From Aquimonas sp. (GTDB lineage: Bacteria > Pseudomonadota > Gammaproteobacteria > Xanthomonadales > Xanthomonadaceae): DNA of 64,000 nucleotides. This document shows positions 39,661 to 51,716 of the stretch, piece by piece; within the stretch, counting starts at the first letter, position 1; each line of letters starts with the position of its first letter. Under the pieces are notes generated by a model. That model saw only the letters and a list, made by a program, of their open reading frames with translations, did no database searches and was not told the origin of the DNA. The DNA lies in contig JAKOMQ010000007.1 in assembly GCA_022241605.1 (NCBI GenBank), positions 62,001 through 126,000 on the forward strand, given 5' to 3'. The position numbers and the translations under genes are program-made.

Positions 39661-40602
39661 ATGCGCAGGCGGCTGCGCATCGTGCGCTGGGCTTTCGCGC
39701 TGGGCCTGTGCGGCCTGTGGCTCGCCGGCACCCTCGCGCCGCTGGGTTTCCTGAAGCTTGCGATCACCCTCGACAGCCTGCGCAGCGGCGTCGAGCACGT
39801 GCAGGTGTCCTCGGACGGAATGCGCTGGAGCCTGCTGCGGCGCGAGGGTGCGGCGGGTGCACCCACTGTCCTGCTGTTGCACGGATTTACCGGCAGCAAG
39901 GAAAACTGGCTGCCGCTGGTGCGCGCACTTCCGAGCGATTGGAATCTGATCGCCCCGGACCTCCCCGGCTGGGGCGAGTCCGAGCGCGTCGAGGGTGTCG
40001 AATATGGCTACGCCGCCCAAGCGGACAGGTTGGCCAGGCTGATTCGAACGCTTGAGTTGTCCGAGGTGCTGCTGGTAGGACACTCGATGGGCGGGGGCAT
40101 TGCCGCGGTCACTGCGGCGCGGCACCCGGAGGCTTTCAGCCGGGTCGCCCTGCTCAGTGCTGCCGGCACCCGCTTTCGCGACAACCCCTTCGGCCTTGCC
40201 GTGCTGCGCGGCGAGCATCCCTTCGCGGTGCAGGATCGAGAAAGCCTGAATCGGTATCTCGGTCTCGTCTTCGAGCGCCCTCCGTGGCTGGTCTGGCCGC
40301 TGCCGCAGGCGCTGGTTGAACGCCGTATCCGCGACTACGAATTCGAGCTGCAGGTGCTGAATGCACTGCGGGGCGAGAGCGCTTTTCTGCCCGGCGATCT
40401 GGCCGCGGGCATTCGGCAGCCCACGCTGCTGCTGTGGTGTCGCGATGATCCGGTGGTGGATGCAAGCTCCGCCGATCTGTACGCGGACAGGATCGACAAG
40501 AACCGCATTGTGCTGTTGGACGACTGCGCGCATATGCCGATGATGGAGCGTGCAGCCGACACCGCCGACGCACTGCGTCTGCTTTGGGAGTCGCCGCCAT
40601 AA
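39661..40602 (+). CDS. Alpha/beta hydrolase, membrane-anchored
   Basis: A 313-aa alpha/beta hydrolase preceded by one N-terminal membrane segment (about 8-30). Oxyanion region LLLHGFTGSKENW, nucleophile elbow GHSMGG with Ser, acid WCRDDPVVD, and catalytic His in DDCAHMPMME. It resembles lipases/esterases or haloperoxidase-like hydrolases; the substrate is unknown. ATG at 39661 has AGGAGA at a good distance, preferred over ATG at 39628. It overlaps the kinase gene by 19 bases. Confidence 0.9.
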   Translation: MRRRLRIVRWAFALGLCGLWLAGTLAPLGFLKLAITLDSLRSGVEHVQVSSDGMRWSLLRREGAAGAPTVLLLHGFTGSKENWLPLVRALPSDWNLIAPDLPGWGESERVEGVEYGYAAQADRLARLIRTLELSEVLLVGHSMGGGIAAVTAARHPEAFSRVALLSAAGTRFRDNPFGLAVLRGEHPFAVQDRESLNRYLGLVFERPPWLVWPLPQALVERRIRDYEFELQVLNALRGESAFLPGDLAAGIRQPTLLLWCRDDPVVDASSADLYADRIDKNRIVLLDDCAHMPMMERAADTADALRLLWESPP

Positions 40603-43355
40603 GCCGACCTGCCATCGACTGGTCCGAAGTTCGCAGGCTGTTCGACCTGGTCTGCGAACGTCCCGAATCGGACTGGCTGGACCTGCTGCAGGCGGAGGGC
40701 GCCAGCGACGTGGTGTCGCGTGAGGTTCTGGAGCTGTGCCGAGTACAGACACGGGGTGCGGCCCTGCCGCGGCCGGTGGCGAAGATGCTGGCCAGCCTCG
40801 ATCCCGAATTGCCAGCGGGCACGCGGCTCGGCCCTTGGCGCCTGCTGTCGACCCTGGCGGAAGGCGGCATGGGCCGGGTCTATCTGGCCGAGCGCGCCGA
40901 CGGGCAGTACGAGATGAAGGTGGCGATCAAGCGCCTTCGCGCGCTCGGAGCCGCGGAAGAGCACGCCCTGCTGCGACGCGAGCGGCAGATCCTGGCCGAT
41001 CTGGTCCATCCGCACATCGCTCGTCTGCTCGATGGCGGCGTCAGCCCCAACGGCCAGCCGCACCTGGTCATGGAGTACATCGAAGGCCGACGTATCGACC
41101 ACTGGTGCGCCAGTGGTGGCCTGGCGCTTTCGGCAAGGCTGCGGCTTTTTATGCAGGTGGCGCGCGCTGTGGCGCACGCCCACCGGCATCTGGTCCTGCA
41201 CTGCGATATCAAGCCCTCCAACGTCCTGGTGCGGTCGGATGGCACGCCGGTGCTGCTCGATTTCGGCATCGCGCGGCTGCTGGACTCCGAGGGGCGCGAG
41301 GCCGGCGGGCAGGGTTACATGACGCCGCGATACGCCAGCCCCGAGCAGAAGCGCGGCGAGCCGCTGTCTGCAGCCACCGATATCTACAGCCTTGGCTTGC
41401 TGTTGTCGGAACTGCTCGCGCCGGATCCGGATTCGAAGCCCGAGTCAGCGTCCACCGACACCCCGCCGACCCAGCCGCCCAGCGGCCGTGCGGTGCGTTC
41501 CGGGCTGCCTTGGGCGCGGCACCTGCGCGGCGATCTCGATTCCATCGTGATGCGCGCCTGTGCCGCCGACCCTGCTCGGCGCTACGACAGCGCGGAGTCG
41601 TTGGCTGCTGACATCGAACGGCATCTGGAACGTCGTCCGGTCGCCGCACGCAGGGGTGCGCCGGGTTACCACCTGCTGCGCCTGCTGCAGCGGCGCTGGC
41701 CTGTGTTCACTGCTGGCGCCGTGATGCTGGCAATGGCGGCAGGCTTCACCTTCAGCCTGCAGCTCCAGCTGGAGCGCGCTCGCACAGCCGAGCAGATGGC
41801 CCGCGTCGAGGTCGAAAGCAACCGGCAAACGGTGCAGTTTCTGCTTGGGGTGTTCGAGCATGCGGATCCCGAGCTTGGCAGCCGTGCCGATACCACCGCG
41901 CGCGAGCTGCTGGACTCCGCGCGTCGCGAGCTGGATGCAGGGCTGCCGGCGGACCGTGAGCTGCGGATGCGGTTGGCGCTCACCTTGGGCCAGATCTATT
42001 ACCGCATCGGCTTGCCTGCCGAGGCATTGCAGCTGCTTCGGACGGCGCAGTCACTGGCGCCATCGACCCTGCCGCTGCCGGAGCGCCTGCAGCTGGAGGA
42101 CAGTCTCGCTCAGGCATTGCTCATGTTTGGCGAGCAGGCGGATGCCGAACACGTGGCGCGGCAGGCACTGGCGCTGGCCGAGGCTCGGCTGGATCCCAAT
42201 GATCTCGCAGTCGGCAACGCGCTCAACACCCTGGGTCTCGCTCTGAACGATCGACAGCGCGTGGATGAAGCTTCGACGGTGTTTCGCCGCGCGCTGGCGA
42301 TACGCGAGGAAGCCGCCGGGATACCCAGCATCGAGGTGGCATCCACACTCCACAACCTTGGACTGGTGGAGCGCCGTGCGCAGCGCCTGGATTCCGCCGA
42401 GACCTACCTGCGGCGTTCGCTGGCGATCAAGGCCGAGTTGTATCCACCCGAGCACGTTCGCAACCTGGTCAGCCTTGAGGTGTTGGCTTCCGTCTACACC
42501 GATCGGGCTGACTTCGCAGCTGCCGAGGCCCTCCTGCTGCAGCTGCGTGGGCTGCGCGTCGCCATTCACGGCGAAGAGAATGCGCGGGTTTCACGTCTCG
42601 ACAATGAGCTGGGATCGACCCTGCAGGACCAAGGACGCTACGTGGAAGCCGAGGCCTTCTACCGGCGAGCCCTGGCGGCCAACAGGCGACTGTTCGGCGA
42701 CGACACTTCCGAGGTTGCGCTGGTGCTCAACAACCTCGCCAGTCTGCGGGAGTCCCAGGGCGCGCTTGCAGACGCGTCAGCACTGCTCAGAGAGTCCCTG
42801 CAGATCCGCCTGCTGCGACTGGGGCCGGAGCATCCTGGCACCGCTCGCGTACACCACAACCTGGCACGGGTGCTGCTCGCGCGTGGCCAACACGCCGAGG
42901 CAGTCTCCGAGTTGCGCAAGGCGCTGGACATTCGTCAGCAGCAGCTCGGCCCCGAGCACCCCGAGACGCAGGGCAGCCGTATTCTCGAAGCCCTGCTGCT
43001 GATGCATGCAGGTGACATCGAGAAAGCGCGATCGCAGCTCCGCCAGACCCAACTGACGCTGGAGGCGCATCCCTTCATCGAGGGGCATTTGCACCTGCGC
43101 CTGCTGGATGCGCAGGCGCGAGTCGCGCTTGCCGCCGAAGACACCGAGGGCGCGCGGCTGCTGCTCAACAAAGCTATCGAGGTTATCTCGCTCAAGCTGT
43201 CACCGACGCATCCTATGGGGATGGAGTACCGGCTTCGCGCCGAGCTGCTGAAGCCCCCGCCAGATCGGGACGATGGCTTGATCGAACAGCTGCGCGTGCG
43301 CCTGCAGGAAGTCCTGTCGCCGGATCACCCGCTGCTTGCGGGCGCCAGATCGTAG
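40584..43355 (+). CDS. Membrane Ser/Thr protein kinase with TPR repeats
   Basis: A 923-aa Hanks-type kinase. Kinase domain about 83-355: glycine loop AEGGMGRVYLAE, Lys116 in VAIK, catalytic HCDIKPSN (206-213), DFG at 226-228, YASPEQ. The HRD motif is HCD, so it is a non-RD kinase. A membrane segment lies at about 373-392, followed by an extracytoplasmic array of about ten TPRs (LGPEHPGTARVHHNL, HAEAVSELRKALDIR) to the end. The start codon is unusual: TTG at 40584 inside the alpha/beta hydrolase gene is the only in-frame candidate before the kinase domain. It may sense envelope signals and phosphorylate cytosolic targets. Confidence 0.93.
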   Translation: MGVAAISRPAIDWSEVRRLFDLVCERPESDWLDLLQAEGASDVVSREVLELCRVQTRGAALPRPVAKMLASLDPELPAGTRLGPWRLLSTLAEGGMGRVYLAERADGQYEMKVAIKRLRALGAAEEHALLRRERQILADLVHPHIARLLDGGVSPNGQPHLVMEYIEGRRIDHWCASGGLALSARLRLFMQVARAVAHAHRHLVLHCDIKPSNVLVRSDGTPVLLDFGIARLLDSEGREAGGQGYMTPRYASPEQKRGEPLSAATDIYSLGLLLSELLAPDPDSKPESASTDTPPTQPPSGRAVRSGLPWARHLRGDLDSIVMRACAADPARRYDSAESLAADIERHLERRPVAARRGAPGYHLLRLLQRRWPVFTAGAVMLAMAAGFTFSLQLQLERARTAEQMARVEVESNRQTVQFLLGVFEHADPELGSRADTTARELLDSARRELDAGLPADRELRMRLALTLGQIYYRIGLPAEALQLLRTAQSLAPSTLPLPERLQLEDSLAQALLMFGEQADAEHVARQALALAEARLDPNDLAVGNALNTLGLALNDRQRVDEASTVFRRALAIREEAAGIPSIEVASTLHNLGLVERRAQRLDSAETYLRRSLAIKAELYPPEHVRNLVSLEVLASVYTDRADFAAAEALLLQLRGLRVAIHGEENARVSRLDNELGSTLQDQGRYVEAEAFYRRALAANRRLFGDDTSEVALVLNNLASLRESQGALADASALLRESLQIRLLRLGPEHPGTARVHHNLARVLLARGQHAEAVSELRKALDIRQQQLGPEHPETQGSRILEALLLMHAGDIEKARSQLRQTQLTLEAHPFIEGHLHLRLLDAQARVALAAEDTEGARLLLNKAIEVISLKLSPTHPMGMEYRLRAELLKPPPDRDDGLIEQLRVRLQEVLSPDHPLLAGARS

Positions 43356-44019
43356 GAGAGGGCAGGGCTCGATCGCTGTTCCCAAACGCGGCGCCCCGTC
43401 TGCACGGGCGGTACGGTGCCTTGCGAATACTCGCGATCGGAGCAGCGCTATTTCAGCCAGTGCGATCGCGAGCCTTGGTACGCCAGTCACGCAGGCCGCA
43501 AAAGAAACGGCGCGGCCCATCCGCTGGCGCTGCCGCTGTCGGCAGCCTGCGGGGTTGCGGCGGGTTGTCGCGCATGGGTTCATGGGCGGGCGGGCGACGA
43601 CGCTCGGAGAGGCGCGCGGTCATCTCAGCGAGGCCTTGCAGAAGCGGAGGGCAACAGCGGTGCGGCGTAGTGTCGCGATGCGCAGCCTGCAGGCAGCGCA
43701 GGCTTGGGCGGCCTTGTCTGGTGTGGGGCGACGTTGCCGGCGCTGAACCAGCGCGGCTTGCGGGTTTGACGGTCGTGCATGGCTGGGCTCCGTGATTCCG
43801 CGCAAGTGGGCGCAGGGACATTGGGCCGGTGCTGGATGCTGCACAGGTGGCGGCATGTGGCGATTTGCGGGCACGTGCCATCGCGCAGGCGGCAGCTGCT
43901 TGCGCCGCCGCATCGTCTGCGGCCTGTGCTGCGGCCACGCCAGCCCCCTTTGCCCCGGTTGCCGCTGCGCCAGCCTGCAGCTCCTGCGCCTGGAGCCTCG
44001 CCAGCGGCCACGCCGGCAT
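43356..44019. other. Region without a supported gene
   Basis: About 660 bp between the kinase stop and the stop of the S51 peptidase gene. It is GC-rich and contains overlapping open frames on both strands (for example 43453-44019 minus, Ala-rich, and 43421-43795 plus), but none shows family motifs or a convincing ribosome-binding site. The minus-strand frame 43453-44019 begins with ATG directly after the S51 stop. It could hold a decayed gene, an untranslated RNA or another repeat family. Confidence 0.5.
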
Positions 44020-45741
44020 TCACGGTGCGCGGTATTCCATCCTCAGTGGACCGATCGACTGGCGGCTGCCCGTCGCTTCAACCCGTGTCTGCGCCATGCG
44101 CTGCAGGCGGATCCGGCCTGATCCTGCGGCCAAATCAAGCGTCTCGTGGCCGCAGCGCCCAAGGCTGGCGCCGGCCAGTCGCAAGGCTCCGCTCTGCAGC
44201 GCATCCTCGGGCGCCTGTTGGGCGCTGCCCTCTGCGCTGCCCTCCGCGCAGGCCAGCGCCCATTCCGCGGCGGCGTGCACGGTGCCATCGGGTTCGACAC
44301 TCAAGGCCATCCGAGCGCCCGCCCCCAGGTACCAAACCTCGGCGGCCAGCCCTGCCGGCGTTGAGGCAGGCCGGTGCAGGAAGATCCAGCCACCATGCTG
44401 GCCGATGGCTTCCACCGTGATGTGTCCGCTTTCTCCGCGCAGCAGGAGGGCGCTGCCCTCGTCCACCCCGTAGCCCAAGCGCGCGCCAGTCTGGTCGAGC
44501 AGGCGCAGCAGGCGCGGCTCGCGCGCACGCTCGGAAAAGTGGGTGTCCACTACTGCGTGATTGGCCAGACCGAAGCCGCCAGCCGGCCAGAAACTGAGGC
44601 TCTCAGGGTGCATTCCGGAGGGACAGTCGCCCGCGCGCGCGCAGCCCGGATCCGGCGGAGGCGCGGCCATGCCGAGGGCGGTCAGTGCGGCCTCCGGGCT
44701 ACCGTTGCTGAGCATGGCGGCGCCGGATTGAACCGCAGCGCCGGCGCTTGTGCCACCCACCACCAGTCGACCTTCAGTGTGCGCGGCCCGCATTCGCTGC
44801 AGCCACGGCAGGGGGCTGCCGTCCGGCGCGAAGAAGGCCTGCCGAAGCCGCCACTGATCGCCTCCGGAGAAGAAAACACCCTGCACCTTATCCGGCAGCG
44901 CGGCGAGGGCGTCTGGATTGCGACAGGCTGCCACCTGCTGCTCGGCAAGCCGTGGATACACCTGATCTCGCCTCGCCAGGCGAAGGTGGTGTCGACGCGC
45001 TTGCTCCAGCCTTTCGCAGCCCGCACCCGACTCGATCTGTCGGGCAAGCGCGGCGTCCAGCGGCCACCACTCGGCTTCGGCGCCGAATGCGGCAAACAGG
45101 GACAGATAAAACTCCACCGGCTCGAAGGGATCCAGCGCCGAGGCGGTGACTACGGCAATCCGTGGCGCACCTTCGCTGCGCTCCGCCGCCTCGGACACGA
45201 AGCGTCGAATCACGTCGATGCCCGCATCCGCAGGGCTCAGCTCGGGGTAGGCACGTTCGCTCGCGAAGCCAGTCGGCGCAAGCTCGAGTGCCGCCAGCAG
45301 CGCGGCGCGCGAGGCGTCGTCAAGGCTGCGCCAAGGCGACTCCTGCCCACGCCGGCAGCGACGGCCGACGCCGCGTGGATCGAGGCAGACGGCGCTGAGC
45401 GCATCTTCCATGGCGGCAACGCCAAGCTGGTTTGATTCGACGCGGCGACCGACCGCTTTCACCCAGCTGTGGATAGCCAGCGCGCCTGCCTCGCTGCCCG
45501 CCCACAGCGCGGGGTCTGCGGCGGCCTGCAGGGACTCGGCATTGATTGCGAAGCGAGCGGGAACGCGCGTCGATGCGTTCCGTGGCGGTGCATGCGTGCA
45601 GCTTCGCTGTGCAAGATCCGAACAGATTCGCAGGGAGCCTCCAGCAAGAATCACGGTGGGCTCGACTTTCGGCAAGCGCGCTTCGGCTGTACTGATTGCA
45701 AGCAGGACAGTGATTGCAGCGATGAGTATCGGCAGTCGCAC
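44020..45741 (-). CDS. Secreted S51 peptidase, cyanophycinase-like
   Basis: Predicted exported serine exopeptidase (573 aa) of family S51, which includes cyanophycinases that release beta-Asp-Arg dipeptides from cyanophycin. Signal peptide (RLPILIAAITVLLAISTAEA). Catalytic features: nucleophile Ser332 in VVGGTSAGAAV, Gln296 in FFSGGDQ, then HFSERAREPRLLRLL and GYGVDEGSALLL. The first strand (TVILAGGSL, 29-37) is separated from the next (RIAVVTAS, 194-201) by about 155 residues where family members have a short link, so a large insertion is present. Start GTG at 45741 opens the signal peptide; a Shine-Dalgarno is weak. It is divergent from the TonB receptor. Confidence 0.85.
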   Translation of the reverse strand: MRLPILIAAITVLLAISTAEARLPKVEPTVILAGGSLRICSDLAQRSCTHAPPRNASTRVPARFAINAESLQAAADPALWAGSEAGALAIHSWVKAVGRRVESNQLGVAAMEDALSAVCLDPRGVGRRCRRGQESPWRSLDDASRAALLAALELAPTGFASERAYPELSPADAGIDVIRRFVSEAAERSEGAPRIAVVTASALDPFEPVEFYLSLFAAFGAEAEWWPLDAALARQIESGAGCERLEQARRHHLRLARRDQVYPRLAEQQVAACRNPDALAALPDKVQGVFFSGGDQWRLRQAFFAPDGSPLPWLQRMRAAHTEGRLVVGGTSAGAAVQSGAAMLSNGSPEAALTALGMAAPPPDPGCARAGDCPSGMHPESLSFWPAGGFGLANHAVVDTHFSERAREPRLLRLLDQTGARLGYGVDEGSALLLRGESGHITVEAIGQHGGWIFLHRPASTPAGLAAEVWYLGAGARMALSVEPDGTVHAAAEWALACAEGSAEGSAQQAPEDALQSGALRLAGASLGRCGHETLDLAAGSGRIRLQRMAQTRVEATGSRQSIGPLRMEYRAP

Positions 45742-45805
45742 GGTGGAATCCGCTCGGTGGGGTGCGCTGAACCTTAGCAGCCGGATCGCCCCGAAGGGTG
45801 GGGGC

Positions 45806-45834
45806 TTGACGTAGCCCGGGCGCACGGGTTTACC
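45806..45834 (+). promoter_or_regulatory. Candidate sigma-70 promoter for the TonB receptor side
   Basis: TTGACG (45806-45811) is followed after 17 bp by TTTACC (45829-45834). The first hexamer is close to consensus and the second weak. It lies in the 356-bp divergent region between the S51 peptidase and the TonB receptor, 34 bp before a small open frame at 45868. Low confidence; no operator was recognised. Confidence 0.3.
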
Positions 45835-45867
45835 CTTCATCCCACGTTGATCCGTCCCGGCGACCCG

Positions 45868-45939
45868 ATGACCAAGCCGCACAAGCACATCCGGCACATC
45901 GCGCGCACCTACTACTTGAGCGAGTGGTGGGACGAGTAG
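45868..45939 (+). CDS. Possible 23-residue small protein or leader peptide
   Basis: An ATG-started frame encoding MTKPHKHIRHIARTYY... and ending LSEWWDE, with codons typical of the genome. The peptide is His-rich and ends in two Trp and two acids. No clear ribosome-binding site is seen. It lies between the candidate promoter at 45806 and the TonB receptor start at 46098, so it could be a leader peptide of that transcript. Coding status is a guess. Confidence 0.25.
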   Translation: MTKPHKHIRHIARTYYLSEWWDE

Positions 45940-46097
45940 CAGTTCCCCGGGGAGATCGCGCCAGCAGCCTCGATTGAGGCGTCCGCTGGCCACACCCAGC
46001 TGCCGGTCCTTCCGGCGTCTTGCAGGCCATCCTCCTTGCACGCTTCCGCGCAGCTTCGGCTGTCGCCGGCGGCTCGGGGACCCGTGGGGATATCACC

Positions 46098-48845
46098 ATG
46101 CACCACCCTAAACTGCTCTCCGTCGCGGTCGCGACGGCCCTGTTCTCCTGCGTCGCCGTGGCACAGGAGCCCGCCGAGTCGACCGAGCTTGGCCAGATCC
46201 AGGTCACCGGCTCCAACATCCGCGGCATCGACCTGCAGGAAGCCCAGCCCGTGCTGGTGCTGGACGAAGAGGACTTCCGCCAGCTCGGCGCGGTGACCGT
46301 GGGTGACCTGGTCACCCAGATCTCAGCCTCGCGCGGTGGCACCGGCAGCTTCAGCACGGGCAACTCGGGCGCCCTGCAGGCGGATACGCCGGCCGGCGCT
46401 TCGGCGATCTCGCTGCGCGGCCTCGGCACGGCCTCCACCCTGACCCTGGTCAATGGCCGCCGGGTGGCGGTGTCTTCGTTTGCCTCGGGCTCGGAGAACT
46501 TCGTCGACATCAATGCCATCCCGATGGCGGCAGTCGATCGCATCGAGATCCTGACCACCGGTGCTTCGGCCATCTACGGCGCGGATGCCGTGGCCGGCGT
46601 GGTCAACATCATCCTGCGCCGCGACTTCGAAGGTGTGCGGCTCAGCGCCAGCCTGGGCGACTCCGAGGCCAAAACCGACGAAATGCGCGCCACGGCAAAT
46701 CTGGTGGCCGGCTACGTGGGCGACCGTTCGCGCGGCCTGTTCGTGCTTGACGTGTTCAAGCGCAACGCCCTGTACAACCGCGATCGGGCCATCACCGCGG
46801 TGGAACCCAGGCCCTCGCAGCAGGGGATTTTTCCCAGCTTCAATGATCTCGACGCAATGCGCCTGGACCTGGTTGAGGGGGCATGCCCGGATGATCAGCG
46901 TTTCGACGGCCGCCCCGGCTTTCCGAACTCGCGCTTTGGCGCTTTTTGCGAGATCAACCGCAACGCGTTCACGCCCACTGACCCGGAAACCCAGCGGGTC
47001 GGCGCCTATGCCACCTGGAGTTACGACTTCGGCGATCGCACCGAGTACTTCACCGAGCTGGCGCTGCAGCGCAACGTCTCGCGCGCGGCCAGCTCTCCGG
47101 CGCCCTGGAGCGAGGAACAGATCGCCTTCAATCACCCGGGCATGCCGGCCGAGCTGCGCACGCGCTTGATTGCCGCCGGCGCTGATCCGGGTTTTCCGAT
47201 CTTCGGCTGGGGCCGTTTCCCGGATGCGCGCGAGATCGAAGTGGAGACGCAGAACCTGCGCTGGCTCCATGGTCTGCGCGGCACCGTGGGTGACTGGGAT
47301 TGGGAGACCACGGGCACCGTGTCGCGCAGCGAGTCCACCCAGGAGGCGGTGGCTGGCATCTACAACGTGGAGCGCTTCCGCGCGGCGCTGCTGGGCCGGC
47401 TCTGCGCCACCGGCGCCACCAGCTGCTCGCCGACCAGCGGCGGGCTGTTCTACAACCCCTTCGGCGGCCAGGCCAACAACAGCGATCAGGTGCTCGGCCT
47501 GTTGCGCGAGCAGGTGCCGCGCGACGGCCGTTCGGACCTGTTCGCCTGGGACGCCAAGCTGTCGGGCTTTGCAGGCAGCCTTGGCGGTGGCGATATCGGC
47601 TGGGCCTTCGGCACCGAGCTGCGCCGCGAGAACATCGAGGACCGGCCCTCGCCGCTGGCGACAATCAATCTCGACACCGGCGAAGTGCCGGTTTACGGCT
47701 TCGGCTCCACTGCGGTGCAGGCGGACCGCGGTCAATATGCGCTGTACGCCGAGAGCTTCCTGCCGTTCACCGAGACCTTTGACCTGCGTCTGGCCGCCCG
47801 CTACGACCACTACAGCGACTTCGGTGGCGACTTCAATCCGGCGGTGGCGCTGCGCTGGCGGCCGCACGATGCGGTGGTGTTTCGTGGCGGTTGGAACACC
47901 TCGTTCCGCGCGCCCTCGCTGGCGCAGGTGGGTGCGGGGCTGACCCTGAGTTCAGGCGCGCTGCCGTGTTCGCCGGGCGGTGAGTTCTTCAACACGTTCT
48001 GCGGGGGCTTCAGCGGTGACGACGGCTACCTGTCGGAGATCTACGGCAATCCCGACCTTCAGGCCGAAACCTCGAGTGCGTGGTACCTGGGCAGCGCCTT
48101 CAGCATCGGCCCCAACACCACGCTGACGGTCGACTACTTCAATTTCGACCAGCGCGACCTCGTGGACATCGACGACCTCGAGCTGTTCCGCCGGGCCCTG
48201 AACGATCCGTCCTTGATCTCTCGCACCGCCAATCTGCCCTCGGGCCAGCTCGGCATCGGCATCCGCAACGGCCAGATCGGCGGCAACATCGATCAGGTCA
48301 ACCTGCAGCTGATCAACGTCGGTCGCCAGCGCACCGACGGCATCGACATCGGCTTCGAGCATCGCTTCGAGGAGCGCAGCTGGGGCCGGCTGCGCCTGAT
48401 CGCCGACGCCACCTGGATGAACACCTTCGAGCGCAGCGAGTCCTGCGGCGGTACCGACACCCGGCGTGGCGCGGGTGTCTGCACGGGCGGTCAGCGCCTG
48501 GTCGAGCGGGTAGGTGAGTTCCGCTTCCCCGAGTGGACCGTCAACGCAGGCTTCGCCTGGAGCCGCGGCGGCAGCTTCGCCCGGCTGTTTGCCAACTACG
48601 TGGACGGCTACTTCGATGACGACCAGCGGGCAGGCGTGCCGGAGGGGCGCCGCATCCCCTCCTGGACCACGCTCAACCTGACCCTGGGCCAGGACATCGG
48701 CGAGCATCAGGCGCTGACGCTCAACGTGCGCAACCTGGCCGACCGCGACCCGCCGCTGGCCTTGGGCTCGGCGGCCAACGTGGACCTGTTCAACCACAAC
48801 ACCCTGGGCCGGTTCTGGACGGTGAGCTACGTGTACAGCTTCTGA
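46098..48845 (+). CDS. TonB-dependent outer-membrane receptor
   Basis: A 915-aa TonB-dependent transporter. Signal peptide (MHHPKLLSVAVATALFSCVAVAQ), plug domain (about 30-160; IQVTGSNIRG, ISLRGLGTASTLTLVNGRRV, ASAIYGADAVAGVVNIILR) and a 22-strand barrel ending in the aromatic WTVSYVYSF. It belongs to the large receptor group used by this order for oligomers such as glycans and peptides. ATG at 46098 has GGGGA upstream. Its neighbours, a secreted S51 peptidase, a YfcC transporter and an isoaspartyl dipeptidase, suggest the substrate is a peptide made from aspartyl units (inference). Confidence 0.94.
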   Translation: MHHPKLLSVAVATALFSCVAVAQEPAESTELGQIQVTGSNIRGIDLQEAQPVLVLDEEDFRQLGAVTVGDLVTQISASRGGTGSFSTGNSGALQADTPAGASAISLRGLGTASTLTLVNGRRVAVSSFASGSENFVDINAIPMAAVDRIEILTTGASAIYGADAVAGVVNIILRRDFEGVRLSASLGDSEAKTDEMRATANLVAGYVGDRSRGLFVLDVFKRNALYNRDRAITAVEPRPSQQGIFPSFNDLDAMRLDLVEGACPDDQRFDGRPGFPNSRFGAFCEINRNAFTPTDPETQRVGAYATWSYDFGDRTEYFTELALQRNVSRAASSPAPWSEEQIAFNHPGMPAELRTRLIAAGADPGFPIFGWGRFPDAREIEVETQNLRWLHGLRGTVGDWDWETTGTVSRSESTQEAVAGIYNVERFRAALLGRLCATGATSCSPTSGGLFYNPFGGQANNSDQVLGLLREQVPRDGRSDLFAWDAKLSGFAGSLGGGDIGWAFGTELRRENIEDRPSPLATINLDTGEVPVYGFGSTAVQADRGQYALYAESFLPFTETFDLRLAARYDHYSDFGGDFNPAVALRWRPHDAVVFRGGWNTSFRAPSLAQVGAGLTLSSGALPCSPGGEFFNTFCGGFSGDDGYLSEIYGNPDLQAETSSAWYLGSAFSIGPNTTLTVDYFNFDQRDLVDIDDLELFRRALNDPSLISRTANLPSGQLGIGIRNGQIGGNIDQVNLQLINVGRQRTDGIDIGFEHRFEERSWGRLRLIADATWMNTFERSESCGGTDTRRGAGVCTGGQRLVERVGEFRFPEWTVNAGFAWSRGGSFARLFANYVDGYFDDDQRAGVPEGRRIPSWTTLNLTLGQDIGEHQALTLNVRNLADRDPPLALGSAANVDLFNHNTLGRFWTVSYVYSF

Positions 48846-49125
48846 GGCCAGGCGATCCGGCTGCATCACGTCGCCGCGCGGGGCTCGACTCTCCGGAGCC
48901 TTGAGCGGCGGCGGCCGCTGGCACCCCCCGGCTGCGGCAGGCCGCAGGCGCGGAGACTCGCGCTGGCACCCGCACCGCTGGATGCGCGGTGCGTTCAACG
49001 TCGATCGGGCGGAATGCCGGTCGACGCTCGTGGCAGGGCGGGGCGGGAGGTGCGGGCGAAAGCCGGCCTTCCCGCCCGTCGTCCGCTGCCTTGACGCGAT
49101 TTCCTTCCGCAGAGGGCGCCCCCCT

Positions 49126-50550
49126 TTGAGTGCACAACATGCCAGCCCGGCGGCGCCGCCGCAGGGAGGCCTGAACACCTTGCTGCTGCTTTTCCTGATC
49201 GCGCTGGCGCTGGCTCTGGCCTCGCTGCTGGTGCCGGCCGGGCGCTTTGCAGAAGCCCAGCCGCTGGCGCTGTCGAGCTTCGAGTGGGCGCAGCCCGAGA
49301 ATTCGCTGGCCCTGTTCTCCGCCGACGGTGGACGCGGCCTGTTCAACTTCCTGTTCGAGGGCTTTACCTCGGGCGGGCGCAGCTCGGCTGCCGTTGGCGT
49401 GATCGCGCTCGTGCTCATCATCGGCGGCAGTTTCGGGGTGATCCAGGCCTCCGGTGCCGTCGATCGCGGCCTGCTGCGCCTGGTGGGGTTCGCCGGCCGC
49501 CGCGACTGGCTGCTGCTCACCTTGCTGTTCGTGGCGTTCTCGCTTGGGGGCGCGGTGTTCGGCATGGGCGAAGAGACGATCGCCTTCCTGGCACTGTTGC
49601 TGCCGCTGACCGATCGGCTCGGTTTGCCGCGCGCGGCGGCCGTAATGTGCACCTACATGGCCAGCCAGATTGGATTCGCGACGTCCTGGATGAATCCGTT
49701 CAGCGTGGTGGTGGCGCAGGGCATAGCCGGGCTCGATCCGATCAGCGGCGCGCCGTTCCGGATCCTGATGTGGTCCTGCTTCACTGCGCTTGGGCTGGGC
49801 TTCACCCTGCGCTATGCGCTGCGCAACCGCGTTCCGGCGGCGGCGAGCGACTCACCCTCGGGCGAGGCGCGGGTTCCGCTGAGCTGGGGAGATCGGCTGA
49901 TCCTGCTGCTGGTGCTCGCCACCGTGGTGTGGATCGTCTGGGGTGTCAGCCTGCATGGCTATTACCTGCCGGAAATCGCCGGTCAGTTCTTCGGGCTCGG
50001 CCTTGCCGTGGGCCTGGTCTGCTGGCTTGATGGTCGGCTTGGCGCCAACCGGATCGCCGAGGAGTTCACCGAGGGCGTGCGCCGACTGGTGCCGGTGGCT
50101 CTGGTGATTGCCGCGGCGAAGGGCATGCTCTGGCTGTTGGGCGGCGTCGATCCGCACCAGCCATCGGTGCTCAACACCCTGCTGTTCGGCATGGCCTGGC
50201 TGTTCGAGGGGCTGCCGCCGGTGGTGTCCGCGCAAGGGATGTTCCTGCTGCAGGCGGTGTTCAATTTCTTCGTGACATCCGGCTCCGCCCAAGCCGGCAT
50301 CACCATGCCGCTGATGGCGGGCCTTGGCGATCTGGTCGGCGTCAGTCGGCAGACCGCCGTCGTCGCATTCCAACTCGGCGACGGCCTGACCAACCTGGTC
50401 GTGCCGACCTCGGCGGTCATGATCGGCGCGATTGGCGTCGCCGGGATCGGCTGGACCCAATGGCTGCGCCTGATCTGGCGCTTTGAACTCCTACTTTTGG
50501 CCTGCGGCGCGCTGTTCGTTGCCCTGGCCGTTCTCACGGGCCTCGAATGA
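49126..50550 (+). CDS. YfcC family inner-membrane transporter
   Basis: A 474-aa multi-pass protein of the YfcC/DcuC-like ion transporter superfamily (about 12 membrane segments). Family features: GVIQASGAVDRGLLRLV, SLGGAVFGMGEETIAFLALLLPL (key part FGMGEET), ASQIGFATSWMNPF, and SGSAQAGITMPLM with LTNLVVPTS. Substrates proposed for YfcC proteins are amino or dicarboxylic acids and peptides; the position beside iadA suggests import of (iso)aspartyl products. The start is TTG at 49126 with AGAGGG upstream, as no ATG or GTG precedes the first helix. It overlaps iadA by 4 bp. Confidence 0.88.
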   Translation: MSAQHASPAAPPQGGLNTLLLLFLIALALALASLLVPAGRFAEAQPLALSSFEWAQPENSLALFSADGGRGLFNFLFEGFTSGGRSSAAVGVIALVLIIGGSFGVIQASGAVDRGLLRLVGFAGRRDWLLLTLLFVAFSLGGAVFGMGEETIAFLALLLPLTDRLGLPRAAAVMCTYMASQIGFATSWMNPFSVVVAQGIAGLDPISGAPFRILMWSCFTALGLGFTLRYALRNRVPAAASDSPSGEARVPLSWGDRLILLLVLATVVWIVWGVSLHGYYLPEIAGQFFGLGLAVGLVCWLDGRLGANRIAEEFTEGVRRLVPVALVIAAAKGMLWLLGGVDPHQPSVLNTLLFGMAWLFEGLPPVVSAQGMFLLQAVFNFFVTSGSAQAGITMPLMAGLGDLVGVSRQTAVVAFQLGDGLTNLVVPTSAVMIGAIGVAGIGWTQWLRLIWRFELLLLACGALFVALAVLTGLE

Positions 50551-51716
50551 TGCTGCTAGCTGAACAGGATTCCCCACTGCTGATCCGCGATGTCGAGGTG
50601 TTTGCGCCGCAGCCGCTGGGCCGCCGCGATGTGCTGATCGCCGCCGGCCGTGTGCTGGCAATTGAGTCCGACCTGGTGCCGGGCACCGGCTTTCCCCTGC
50701 GGCGTATCGAAGGACGCGGACGCTGGCTGCTGCCTGGGCTGGTCGACAGCCTTGTGCACATCGGCGGCGGCGGCGGTGAGGGCGGCTTTGCCACTCGCGC
50801 GGAACCCCTGCGCGCGCAGCAGGCCTTCGAGGCCGGCGTCACCACCCTGATCGGCGCGCTCGGCACGGATGAGGTCACCCGCAGCCACGCCGACCTGCTG
50901 GCCTGCGCGCGGGCCCTGTCCAGCGAAGGCCTCTCCGCCTATGTGCTCAGCGGCAGCTACCGGGTGCCGGTGGCGACCCTGACTGGCTGCCTGCGCCGCG
51001 ATCTGGTGCTCATCCCGGAGATGATCGGCGCCGGCGAGATCGCCATCGCCGACCATCGCGGCTCCCAGCCCAGCGCGGCCGAGCTGGCGCGCATTGGCGC
51101 GGATGCGCGGGTCGGCGGCATGCTGGCCGGCAAGCGCGGCACCGTACTCATCCATGTCGGTGACGCGCCTGAAGGCCTGCGCCTGCTGCATGAAGTGAGC
51201 GACACCTCGGCGCTGCCGGTCTGGCAGTGGCATCCCACCCACATCAACCGAAATCGGCCGCTGTTCGAGCAGGGCATCGCTTGGGTCACGCGCGGCGGCA
51301 GCATCGACCTGACCGCAAGCACTACGCCGGAGCTGCTGGCGAGCGGCGAGCTGCCGGCCGCCGATGCGCTGCTTGAGCTGCTGCGGCGCGGCGCCCCCGT
51401 CGAGCGCATCACCCTGAGCAGCGACGGCCAGGCCAGCCTTCCGCACTTCGACGAGCAAGGTCGCCTGCTGTCGCTGGAAGTGGCGCCGTTGTCCAGCCTG
51501 CTGGACTGCCTGCGTGCGCTGGTAATCGATCACGGACAGGCGCTGCAGCGCGTGCTTCCCGCGTTCACCCGTTCACCTGCCGAACTGTGGGGGCTGCCGC
51601 GAAAGGGTCGGATCGAGGTCGGCGCGGATGCCGATCTGCTGCTTTTGGATTCGTCAACAATGTCCGTTGAAGTGGTTGTTGCGCGTGGAAGTTGCCACAG
51701 GCTGCGAATCACCTGA
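50547..51716 (+). CDS. iadA: Isoaspartyl dipeptidase homologue lacking one metal-ligand histidine
   Basis: Amidohydrolase (389 aa) homologous to IadA, which cleaves beta-aspartyl dipeptides (also beta-Asp-Arg from cyanophycin). Shared features: GGGGGEGG, ALGTDEVTR, IADHRGSQPS, GGMLAGKRGT, IHVGDAPEGL, HPTHINRNRPLFEQG, LSSDGQASLPHFD and GADADLLLLD. The first metal motif is VDSLVH (66-71): where E. coli IadA has His-Val-His, this protein has Leu69-Val-His71. The bridging lysine is replaced by Glu (GAGEIAIADH), as in a recognised subgroup. Zinc binding may therefore be altered. ATG at 50547 overlaps the transporter stop (ATGA). Confidence 0.9.
   Translation: MMLLAEQDSPLLIRDVEVFAPQPLGRRDVLIAAGRVLAIESDLVPGTGFPLRRIEGRGRWLLPGLVDSLVHIGGGGGEGGFATRAEPLRAQQAFEAGVTTLIGALGTDEVTRSHADLLACARALSSEGLSAYVLSGSYRVPVATLTGCLRRDLVLIPEMIGAGEIAIADHRGSQPSAAELARIGADARVGGMLAGKRGTVLIHVGDAPEGLRLLHEVSDTSALPVWQWHPTHINRNRPLFEQGIAWVTRGGSIDLTASTTPELLASGELPAADALLELLRRGAPVERITLSSDGQASLPHFDEQGRLLSLEVAPLSSLLDCLRALVIDHGQALQRVLPAFTRSPAELWGLPRKGRIEVGADADLLLLDSSTMSVEVVVARGSCHRLRIT

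Follow-up and report, generated by a model that had tools for sequence, protein, structure and literature searches.

A TonB-type locus in Aquimonas sp., probably for scavenging cyanophycin or a related polymer, with its own leader peptide

What is the business of a secreted-looking S51 peptidase whose gene lies back to back with those of a TonB-dependent receptor (TBDR), a YfcC-type transporter and an IadA homologue? The question is raised by a stretch of 64,000 nucleotides from Aquimonas sp. (assembly GCA_022241605.1, contig JAKOMQ010000007.1, positions 62,001 to 126,000), here called the window, to which all coordinates refer. A preliminary description of these genes proposed a scavenging pathway for a beta-aspartyl polymer such as cyanophycin. 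From sequence comparison and predicted structure, we think that the locus is probably a TonB-type system for scavenging cyanophycin or a related beta-Asp-Arg polymer, and that it is equipped with a leader peptide of its own.

In the pathway that we favor, the TBDR would move the polymer or its fragments through the outer membrane, the exported S51 protein, in the periplasm or outside, would cleave the polymer into beta-Asp-Arg dipeptides, the dipeptide would be imported by YfcC, and a cytosolic IadA would split it to Asp and Arg. A 23-residue leader open reading frame (ORF) would probably control expression of the TBDR-YfcC-IadA unit, whose genes we infer to be co-transcribed. The features concerned are as follows.

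44020..45741, minus strand: S51 peptidase, exported-looking, CphE-like, long form; 573 aa, GTG start at 45741
44020..46041, minus strand: full S51 ORF, of which GTG 45741 is the likely start
45806..45834, plus strand: weak candidate promoter 5' of the leader (TTGACG, 17 nt, TTTACC), suggested by conservation of CTTGAC
45868..45939, plus strand: leader ORF, 23 aa, MTKPHKHIRHIARTYYLSEWWDE, stop codon TAG; recognized by its conserved motif and codon evidence
45940..46097, plus strand: spacer of 158 nt from the leader stop to the TBDR start
46098..48845, plus strand: TBDR, with Plug and barrel Pfam domains; signal peptide by eye
49126..50550, plus strand: YfcC-type transporter, DcuC family; 474 aa, likely TTG start at 49126
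50547..51716, plus strand: IadA homologue of the LxH lineage (DSLVH), TIGR01975

The four genes and their conservation

All four genes are present where the preliminary description had placed them, and its gene identities and divergent layout, with the S51 gene on the minus strand and TBDR, YfcC and IadA on the plus strand, are borne out by ORF positions and domain matches. It had the plus-strand genes overlap or adjoin; yfcC and iadA do overlap, by 4 nt, while the TBDR and YfcC genes only adjoin, with a gap of about 280 nt. The host genome assembly measures 2.98 Mb and is 75% complete.

To judge conservation, we scanned genome contigs with a profile of 12 S51 proteins and took the best 80 of at least 401 stretches encoding relatives, which make up 79 loci; layouts were called by comparison with the four window proteins. 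The four genes do stay together in relatives, as the preliminary description had expected of a real pathway. The exact order S51, divergent TBDR, YfcC, IadA occurs in 39 of the 79 loci and all four genes in 43, the additional four having another layout (L095, L111, L112 and L116); two or three of the genes are found in a further 17. Carriers of the set belong to the Lysobacterales, to Alteromonadales-type genera and to Pseudobacteriovorax. When the 1039 ORFs of the 79 loci were clustered, only four big families emerged, S51 (74 loci), TBDR (48), YfcC (45) and IadA (45), counts that omit the window's own copy; the S51 count is high by construction, because S51 was the query. The next-largest family, GGDEF, reached 14 loci, and the one after it 9. 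Synteny by general genome order was considered and rejected, as flanking genes do not recur across the 79 loci: among five neighboring window genes compared with them by tblastn, four match none or one, and a generic GGDEF protein matches 11. Two annotated Pseudoalteromonas records hold the same four genes under the names "cyanophycinase", "TonB-dependent receptor", "yfcC" and "iadA"; the gene table, incomplete by its own description, lists no feature separating cyanophycinase from receptor.

Beyond the S51 gene, positions 40584-43355 encode a kinase-like protein with TPR-like repeats by eye; being matched in only one of the 79 loci, it falls outside the set.

The leader reading frame

A count of k-mers in the S51-TBDR intergenic regions revealed a common motif which, translated, is a short ORF; neither it nor the altered metal motif of IadA (below) figured in the preliminary description. 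All 49 divergent S51-TBDR intergenic regions, that of the window included, have an ORF ending LSEW[FW][DN]E-stop on the strand of the TBDR. With rearranged loci counted, 53 of the 79 loci have a TBDR call, and 52 of these 53 have a leader. The exception, L113, lacks the leader, and its TBDR is of another type. Over all samples the family ending is LSEW[FWC][DN]E-stop, and in the locus the leader lies directly before the TBDR gene.

In 47 aligned leaders, Tyr17, Leu18, Ser19, Glu20, Trp21 and Glu24 are invariant as residues and variable as codons, Leu using five codons and Ser both TCN and AGC. Mismatch frequencies at codon positions 1, 2 and 3 are 0.138, 0.156 and 0.430, and the last nine codons show 3545 synonymous against 1520 non-synonymous changes (counted over pairs, relatedness uncorrected); changes in the other frames are mostly non-synonymous, except in one reverse frame (2381 to 2159). 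This codon pattern is strong evidence that the leader ORF is protein-coding. Dereplication over 60 nt left 102 unique leaders, related species remaining among them; the shortest ATG-initiated version is 24 aa long in 63 of these and 23 aa in nine, and seven have no ATG within 40 codons.

The leader peptide is the part of the locus most likely to be new. Three leader peptides match no Pfam or NCBIfam family at E up to 1, four peptide strings were not found in open-licence PMC papers (which seldom print such strings), no paper listed by searches of open-licence PMC is about the leader by its title or the start of its abstract, and the excerpt of PMC10219788 does not describe it; this and the other papers given by PMC number are cited from excerpts. 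The leader's YLSE resembles a YLSD stretch in the fungal arginine attenuator peptide, a likeness that may be chance.

What stands behind the leader in other genomes was read from whole-genome scans with a 24-nt degenerate motif (TGA allowed), the reversed motif serving as control. The order sample gave ten matches in 151 genomes (control 0); nine are leaders directly before the locus TBDR, and the tenth (G036) lacks LSEW coding. In the class sample 2 of 369 genomes matched (control 1), namely our own and G539, whose match has the same contig and place as that of G589. In the order of carrier G176 (Alteromonas), 26 of 295 genomes have matches, 27 in all (control 2); in the family of carrier G194 (Reinekea), 8 of 22 genomes do, with 17 in all (control 0). 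Across the 53 leaders (9 from the order sample, and 27 and 17 from these last two samples, which are centered on carriers), the first downstream gene encodes a TBDR in 29 cases and an S51 protein in 13; in the other 11 it encodes an ABC binding protein of the Lys/Arg/Orn type or the ATPase that goes with it. Four of the binding proteins were compared with NCBIfam: one (L259) exceeds the curated cut-off of TIGR01096, and the other three fall below it with TIGR01096 still their best match; the remaining seven ABC cases were assigned by similarity or by an ATPase neighbor. In five leader loci an LxH IadA comes next after the binding protein, and one leader-ABC unit includes astE (334.9 bits, cut-off 305.65).

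Leader matches are present in 42 of 44 locus-bearing genomes, which are a biased set, and several of these have two or three, the further copies lying before YfcC (L116), IadA (Photobacterium L128 and L129) and S51 proteins with a PPC domain. Our own genome has a single match, so that none stands at its cyanophycin synthetase (cphA1) locus. A relaxed-motif scan found no leader in 23 loci with S51 and no exact motif, and in G004 and G034 a related TBDR lies beside S51 or beside YfcC-IadA, yet without a leader match.

Two other arrangements deserve mention. A second kind of leader-preceded S51 protein has leaders ending [YF]HLSEWFDE-stop (L224-L227, L229, L230, L232, L266 and L287); most of these proteins have a PPC domain, L227 being without a PPC match. 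In L258-L263 the leader is followed by a Lys/Arg/Orn-type binding protein, an LxH IadA, an ABC ATPase and a second binding protein, and the stretch shows no TBDR (L262 stops short, behind its first binding protein). The gene content of these units suggests an ABC route for beta-Asp-Arg.

The stop codon of the leader is itself constrained. The 102 unique leaders end in TAG (74) or TAA (28) and never in TGA; among 234 control stops, those of the four main locus genes, 82 are TGA and 39 are TAG (p 7e-16 and 8e-23, without correction for relatedness). Release factor 1 (RF1) recognizes TAG and TAA. The 90 nt after the leader stop are richer in C (0.297) than in G (0.216), with C exceeding G in 93 of 102 copies, while the 90 nt before the leader show no such lean (50 of 102). 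There is none before S51 starts either (36 of 77), and the leans before YfcC (41 of 55) and before TBDR starts (35 of 53, a control that is partly the same spacer) are weaker than that of the leader spacer.

The CTTGAC of the candidate promoter is invariant in seven aligned Lysobacterales regions; a consensus promoter scan found none. No intrinsic terminator was found in window positions 45600-46150, and one with a dG of -6 or lower follows the leader in 11 of 49 regions, which is not a conserved feature. ARG-box (ArgR) matches in the 49 S51-TBDR regions number 36 at a score of at least 7 (shuffled mean 34.9) and 10 at a score of 8 (shuffled mean 10.85), with a slight excess at 9 or more (4 against a shuffled mean of 1.0, maximum 3). 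A search of Rfam returned only mir-9033 in window positions 43300-49300, at 29.1 bits where the gathering score is 100, and in five loci only a TPP riboswitch located elsewhere.

What, then, might the peptide do? TnaC, a 24-residue peptide, stalls at its own stop codon, blocks Rho and gates a downstream catabolic operon, and SpeFL senses ornithine and inhibits RF1 (PMC8429421). Two marks of such arrest or leader peptides are found here as well: a short coding ORF stands before a unit, and this ORF is constrained at its C-terminus and stop codon. By analogy, we infer that the LSEW ORF could be an arrest peptide of the TnaC/SpeFL type answering to an arginine-family ligand. The fuller proposal, on which we are evenly divided, is that the LSEW[FWC][DN]E-stop ORFs form a new family of arrest peptides. 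Within the ribosome tunnel they would sense an arginine-family ligand, whether Arg, ornithine or beta-Asp-Arg; release at the RF1-type stop, TAG or TAA, would thereby be blocked, and the genes for cyanophycin scavenging and for arginine-type uptake would be turned on together, possibly because Rho is denied access to the C-rich spacer. A free small protein acting in trans, for example on the TBDR or the transporter, would also fit the conservation at the amino-acid level and the tight linkage to the locus. We nevertheless consider this doubtful, since the leader precedes whichever gene comes first (TBDR, S51, YfcC, IadA or ABC), is present in two or more copies in several genomes, has a variable N-terminus with an invariant C-terminus up to the stop, and is constrained in the identity of the stop codon. 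Should the arrest reading be true, there would be an amino-acid-sensing arrest peptide in several orders with the stop codon itself under selection. The motif can also be used to locate further arginine and cyanophycin uptake genes.

The enzymes and transporters

From its likely start at GTG 45741 the S51 protein would begin with a type-I signal peptide, MRLPILIAAITVLLAISTAEA, with cleavage before R, as read by eye. A crude hydropathy test for signal peptides was set aside as evidence of export, being positive for 37 of 47 S51 proteins and also for 14 of 37 IadA proteins, that of the window included, and so not separating the two. The 605-aa version scored 30.1 bits against Pfam S51 (cut-off 23.9). 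In 47 aligned S51 proteins the catalytic S332, H401 and E428 (numbered from GTG 45741) and the pocket residues Q296, D399, T400, R405, R407 and R410 are invariant; for Q296 and S332 this is partly by selection, because both lie inside the locus-scan patterns, while the other seven lie outside them. The assayed enzyme CphEal keeps the CphB pocket residues except for Gln173, which is Thr (PMC3235067). The window S51 also has Thr there and matches CphEal at all pocket positions, with the full residue set of an extracellular cyanophycinase of the CphE type (Ser, His and Glu together with Gln, Asp, Thr and three Arg). Its AlphaFold2 model (pLDDT 93.3) finds CphB as best match in the PDB (3en0, Z 27.8, 251 residues, rmsd 2.1), with dipeptidase E at Z of about 18. 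Judged by residues and predicted fold, the S51 protein is likely to have cyanophycinase activity. Cyanophycinases have been noted before, one in the genome of a Thalassotalea (PMC7564069) and another, secreted, in Pseudoalteromonas tunicata (PMC2536512).

One S51 relative, L054:4668-6422 (G114), has lost both the catalytic His (DTY for DTH) and the serine motif GTSAGA and is probably an inactive paralogue.

Where would the polymer come from? The preliminary description, finding no cyanophycin synthetase in the window, took it to be foreign. There is indeed no synthetase family match on the window's contig, but one is present on another contig of the same genome (C31:16467-19100, 1104 bits, cut-off 850), in a storage cluster (L040, G000:C31:14281-20965) with an HxH IadA, a short cphB-like S51, cphA1 and a second synthetase-like ORF of 593 aa. 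As the host carries its own synthetase, the lack of cphA in the window is no ground for calling the polymer foreign. In the order sample, cphA1 exceeds the cut-off in 58 of 151 genomes, including 11 of the 14 with a long S51 (above 150 bits) against 47 of 137 others (Fisher p 0.002, kinship and genome incompleteness uncorrected).

The receptor has Plug and barrel domains above the Pfam cut-offs, as expected of a TBDR. It has no close paralogue in its own, incomplete genome, where the next best reaches 131.6 bits for its best piece; orthologues in the 79 loci score about 417-1281 summed bits, a range that omits L076 (cut off) and L113 (with its TBDR of another type). The preliminary description had the polymer cleaved outside first and the dipeptides taken up by the TBDR. 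We find no support for this order; a dipeptide should pass porins, and the TBDR would therefore more plausibly take up polymer fragments. The receptor is tied to this polymer by synteny, and it may serve another substrate.

YfcC just exceeds the curated cut-off of NF008611 (501.9 bits against 500, 463-aa version), a family labeled putative basic amino-acid antiporter in NCBIfam. No PDB sequence matches it at E up to 0.1; its model (pLDDT 87.6) has its best PDB folds in YdaH and MtrF, which we take to be of the AbgT family. YfcC presumably belongs to TC family 2.A.118. Within that family, in the IT superfamily, ArcE of S. pneumoniae exchanges arginine for ornithine (PMC5300872), and with the NCBIfam name this precedent raises the question of whether YfcC exchanges free arginine for ornithine instead of importing beta-Asp-Arg. 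We regard such an exchange as rather improbable, given that IadA has no room for a signal peptide, so that the dipeptide should reach the cytosol to be split, and that yfcC and iadA overlap. Import of the dipeptide is the role that we prefer.

The IadA homologue scores 400.4 bits against TIGR01975 (cut-off 331.25) and is aligned to a solved IadA from residue 12. It belongs to a separate lineage, new here, with Leu in place of the first His in the metal motif. Of 57 IadA sequences read besides that of the window (some genomes counted twice), 54 have Leu, two are unreadable, and one, the cphB-linked copy of our own genome, has His; Leu is also found in five of five readable copies in the leader-ABC loci. 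In the order survey 38 of 151 genomes have an IadA over the cut-off. Readable copies beside a short S51 have His and those beside a TBDR or YfcC have Leu (L036 unreadable). The IadA of eleven genomes lies beside neither by our probes, nine of these with His and two with Leu; eight of the nine lie within about 3 kb of cphA1 (G148, G133, G028, G008, G108, G102, G082 and G056) and the ninth (G113) beside an S51 match. A tree of 76 IadA proteins places 46 with Leu and 30 with His on opposite sides of one branch (support 100/100).

Does the altered motif still permit hydrolysis? The Leu in all readable locus copies, and a Ser at position 297 where HxH relatives have Cys (other positions differ too), could indicate an amidohydrolase that is non-hydrolytic or of different specificity. 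This seems unlikely to us, because the Zn1 ligands listed for CpsIadA are His73 (the second His), Glu166 and Asp293, to the exclusion of the first His (PMC5517026), and the locus IadA keeps all three, along with the Glu bridge, the other Zn ligands and the substrate residues. With the Zn1 ligands kept, one or two metals are both possible in the LxH enzymes.

Several observations weigh against a cyanophycin-scavenging locus of the kind proposed. The S51 protein reaches 79.4 bits with the TIGR02069 cyanophycinase model (605-aa version), below the curated cut-off of 126.6, and is accordingly not filed as that equivalog. S51 stands alone in 19 of the 79 loci; the absence of partners is real in eight of these (L073, L078, L081, L121, L131, L134, L136 and L137), which have about 10 kb on both sides, the others having less flank on at least one side. 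The classic DxHxH of IadA is DxLxH (DSLVH in the window, Leu codon CTT), and two LxH IadA genes (L177 in G003, L178 in G016) have no TBDR, YfcC, long S51 or leader found near them. Finally, PDB entry 7uqv, titled "pseudo-CphB", retains the CphB signature, which is consequently no proof of activity. This last point also favors a locus handling other beta-aspartyl or arginine peptides, such as isoaspartyl peptides from damaged protein, as does the fact that S51 folds include dipeptidase E and that IadA enzymes are promiscuous even when clustered with cyanophycin genes (PMC10206079). Such a function is unlikely when set against the match to CphEal at every pocket position, a fold nearer to CphB than to dipeptidase E, the frequent presence of cphA1 in carriers, and a leader that ties the locus to arginine-type uptake genes. 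We therefore retain cyanophycin or a related polymer as the probable substrate. The scavenging pathway of the preliminary description is likely in outline, and its gene set is conserved; its foreign polymer, its new receptor element (below) and its order of cleavage are the parts that lack support.

Comparison with known systems

In Gram-negative bacteria the locus would be a compact and recurrent means of taking up a nitrogen polymer that is widespread. It offers a testable substrate for the YfcC family, about which little is known, and sets apart an IadA lineage with a changed metal motif. The unannotated leader of about 24 aa, found elsewhere before arginine-type uptake genes, has the look of a nutrient sensor built into the locus.

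The LSEW leader fits alongside TnaC and SpeFL (PMC8429421) in its length and position, in the constraint on its C-terminus, in its stop codon and in the genes that it accompanies, but it is unrelated to them in sequence and stands before several gene types. Like CphEal of Pseudomonas alcaligenes (PMC3235067), which has a signal peptide, the S51 protein has the Ser-His-Glu triad, Gln, Asp, Thr and three Arg, and by eye a putative signal peptide; at 573 aa it is longer than the product of the 1260-bp CphEal gene, with an additional helical portion close to the N-terminus, an extended C-terminus and six conserved Cys. The IadA resembles type I (CpsIadA, 5xgw) in family score, Glu bridge and substrate residues, and differs in having DxLxH for DxHxH and in forming a clade apart from the cphB-linked copies. 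The TBDR, thought in the preliminary description to be a new element, has a precedent: in 2012 a receptor close to a cyanophycinase gene was reported in Citromicrobium, with cyanophycin proposed as its substrate (PMC3400609). The four-gene unit, IadA, YfcC and the leader, all present in the window locus, are not described in the excerpt of that report.

The nearest known system is the "cyanophycin utilization locus" of Ben Hania et al., as cited in PMC10206079 (2023), in which a cyanophycinase, iadA and a transporter are clustered for scavenging. The window has the same cluster of a cyanophycinase-like gene, an isoaspartyl dipeptidase-like gene and a transporter gene. It differs, so far as the excerpt goes, in its TBDR, YfcC, long S51, LxH IadA and leader, and in a host that has cphA1 too. 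It is a well-conserved variant of the cyanophycin utilization loci already described.

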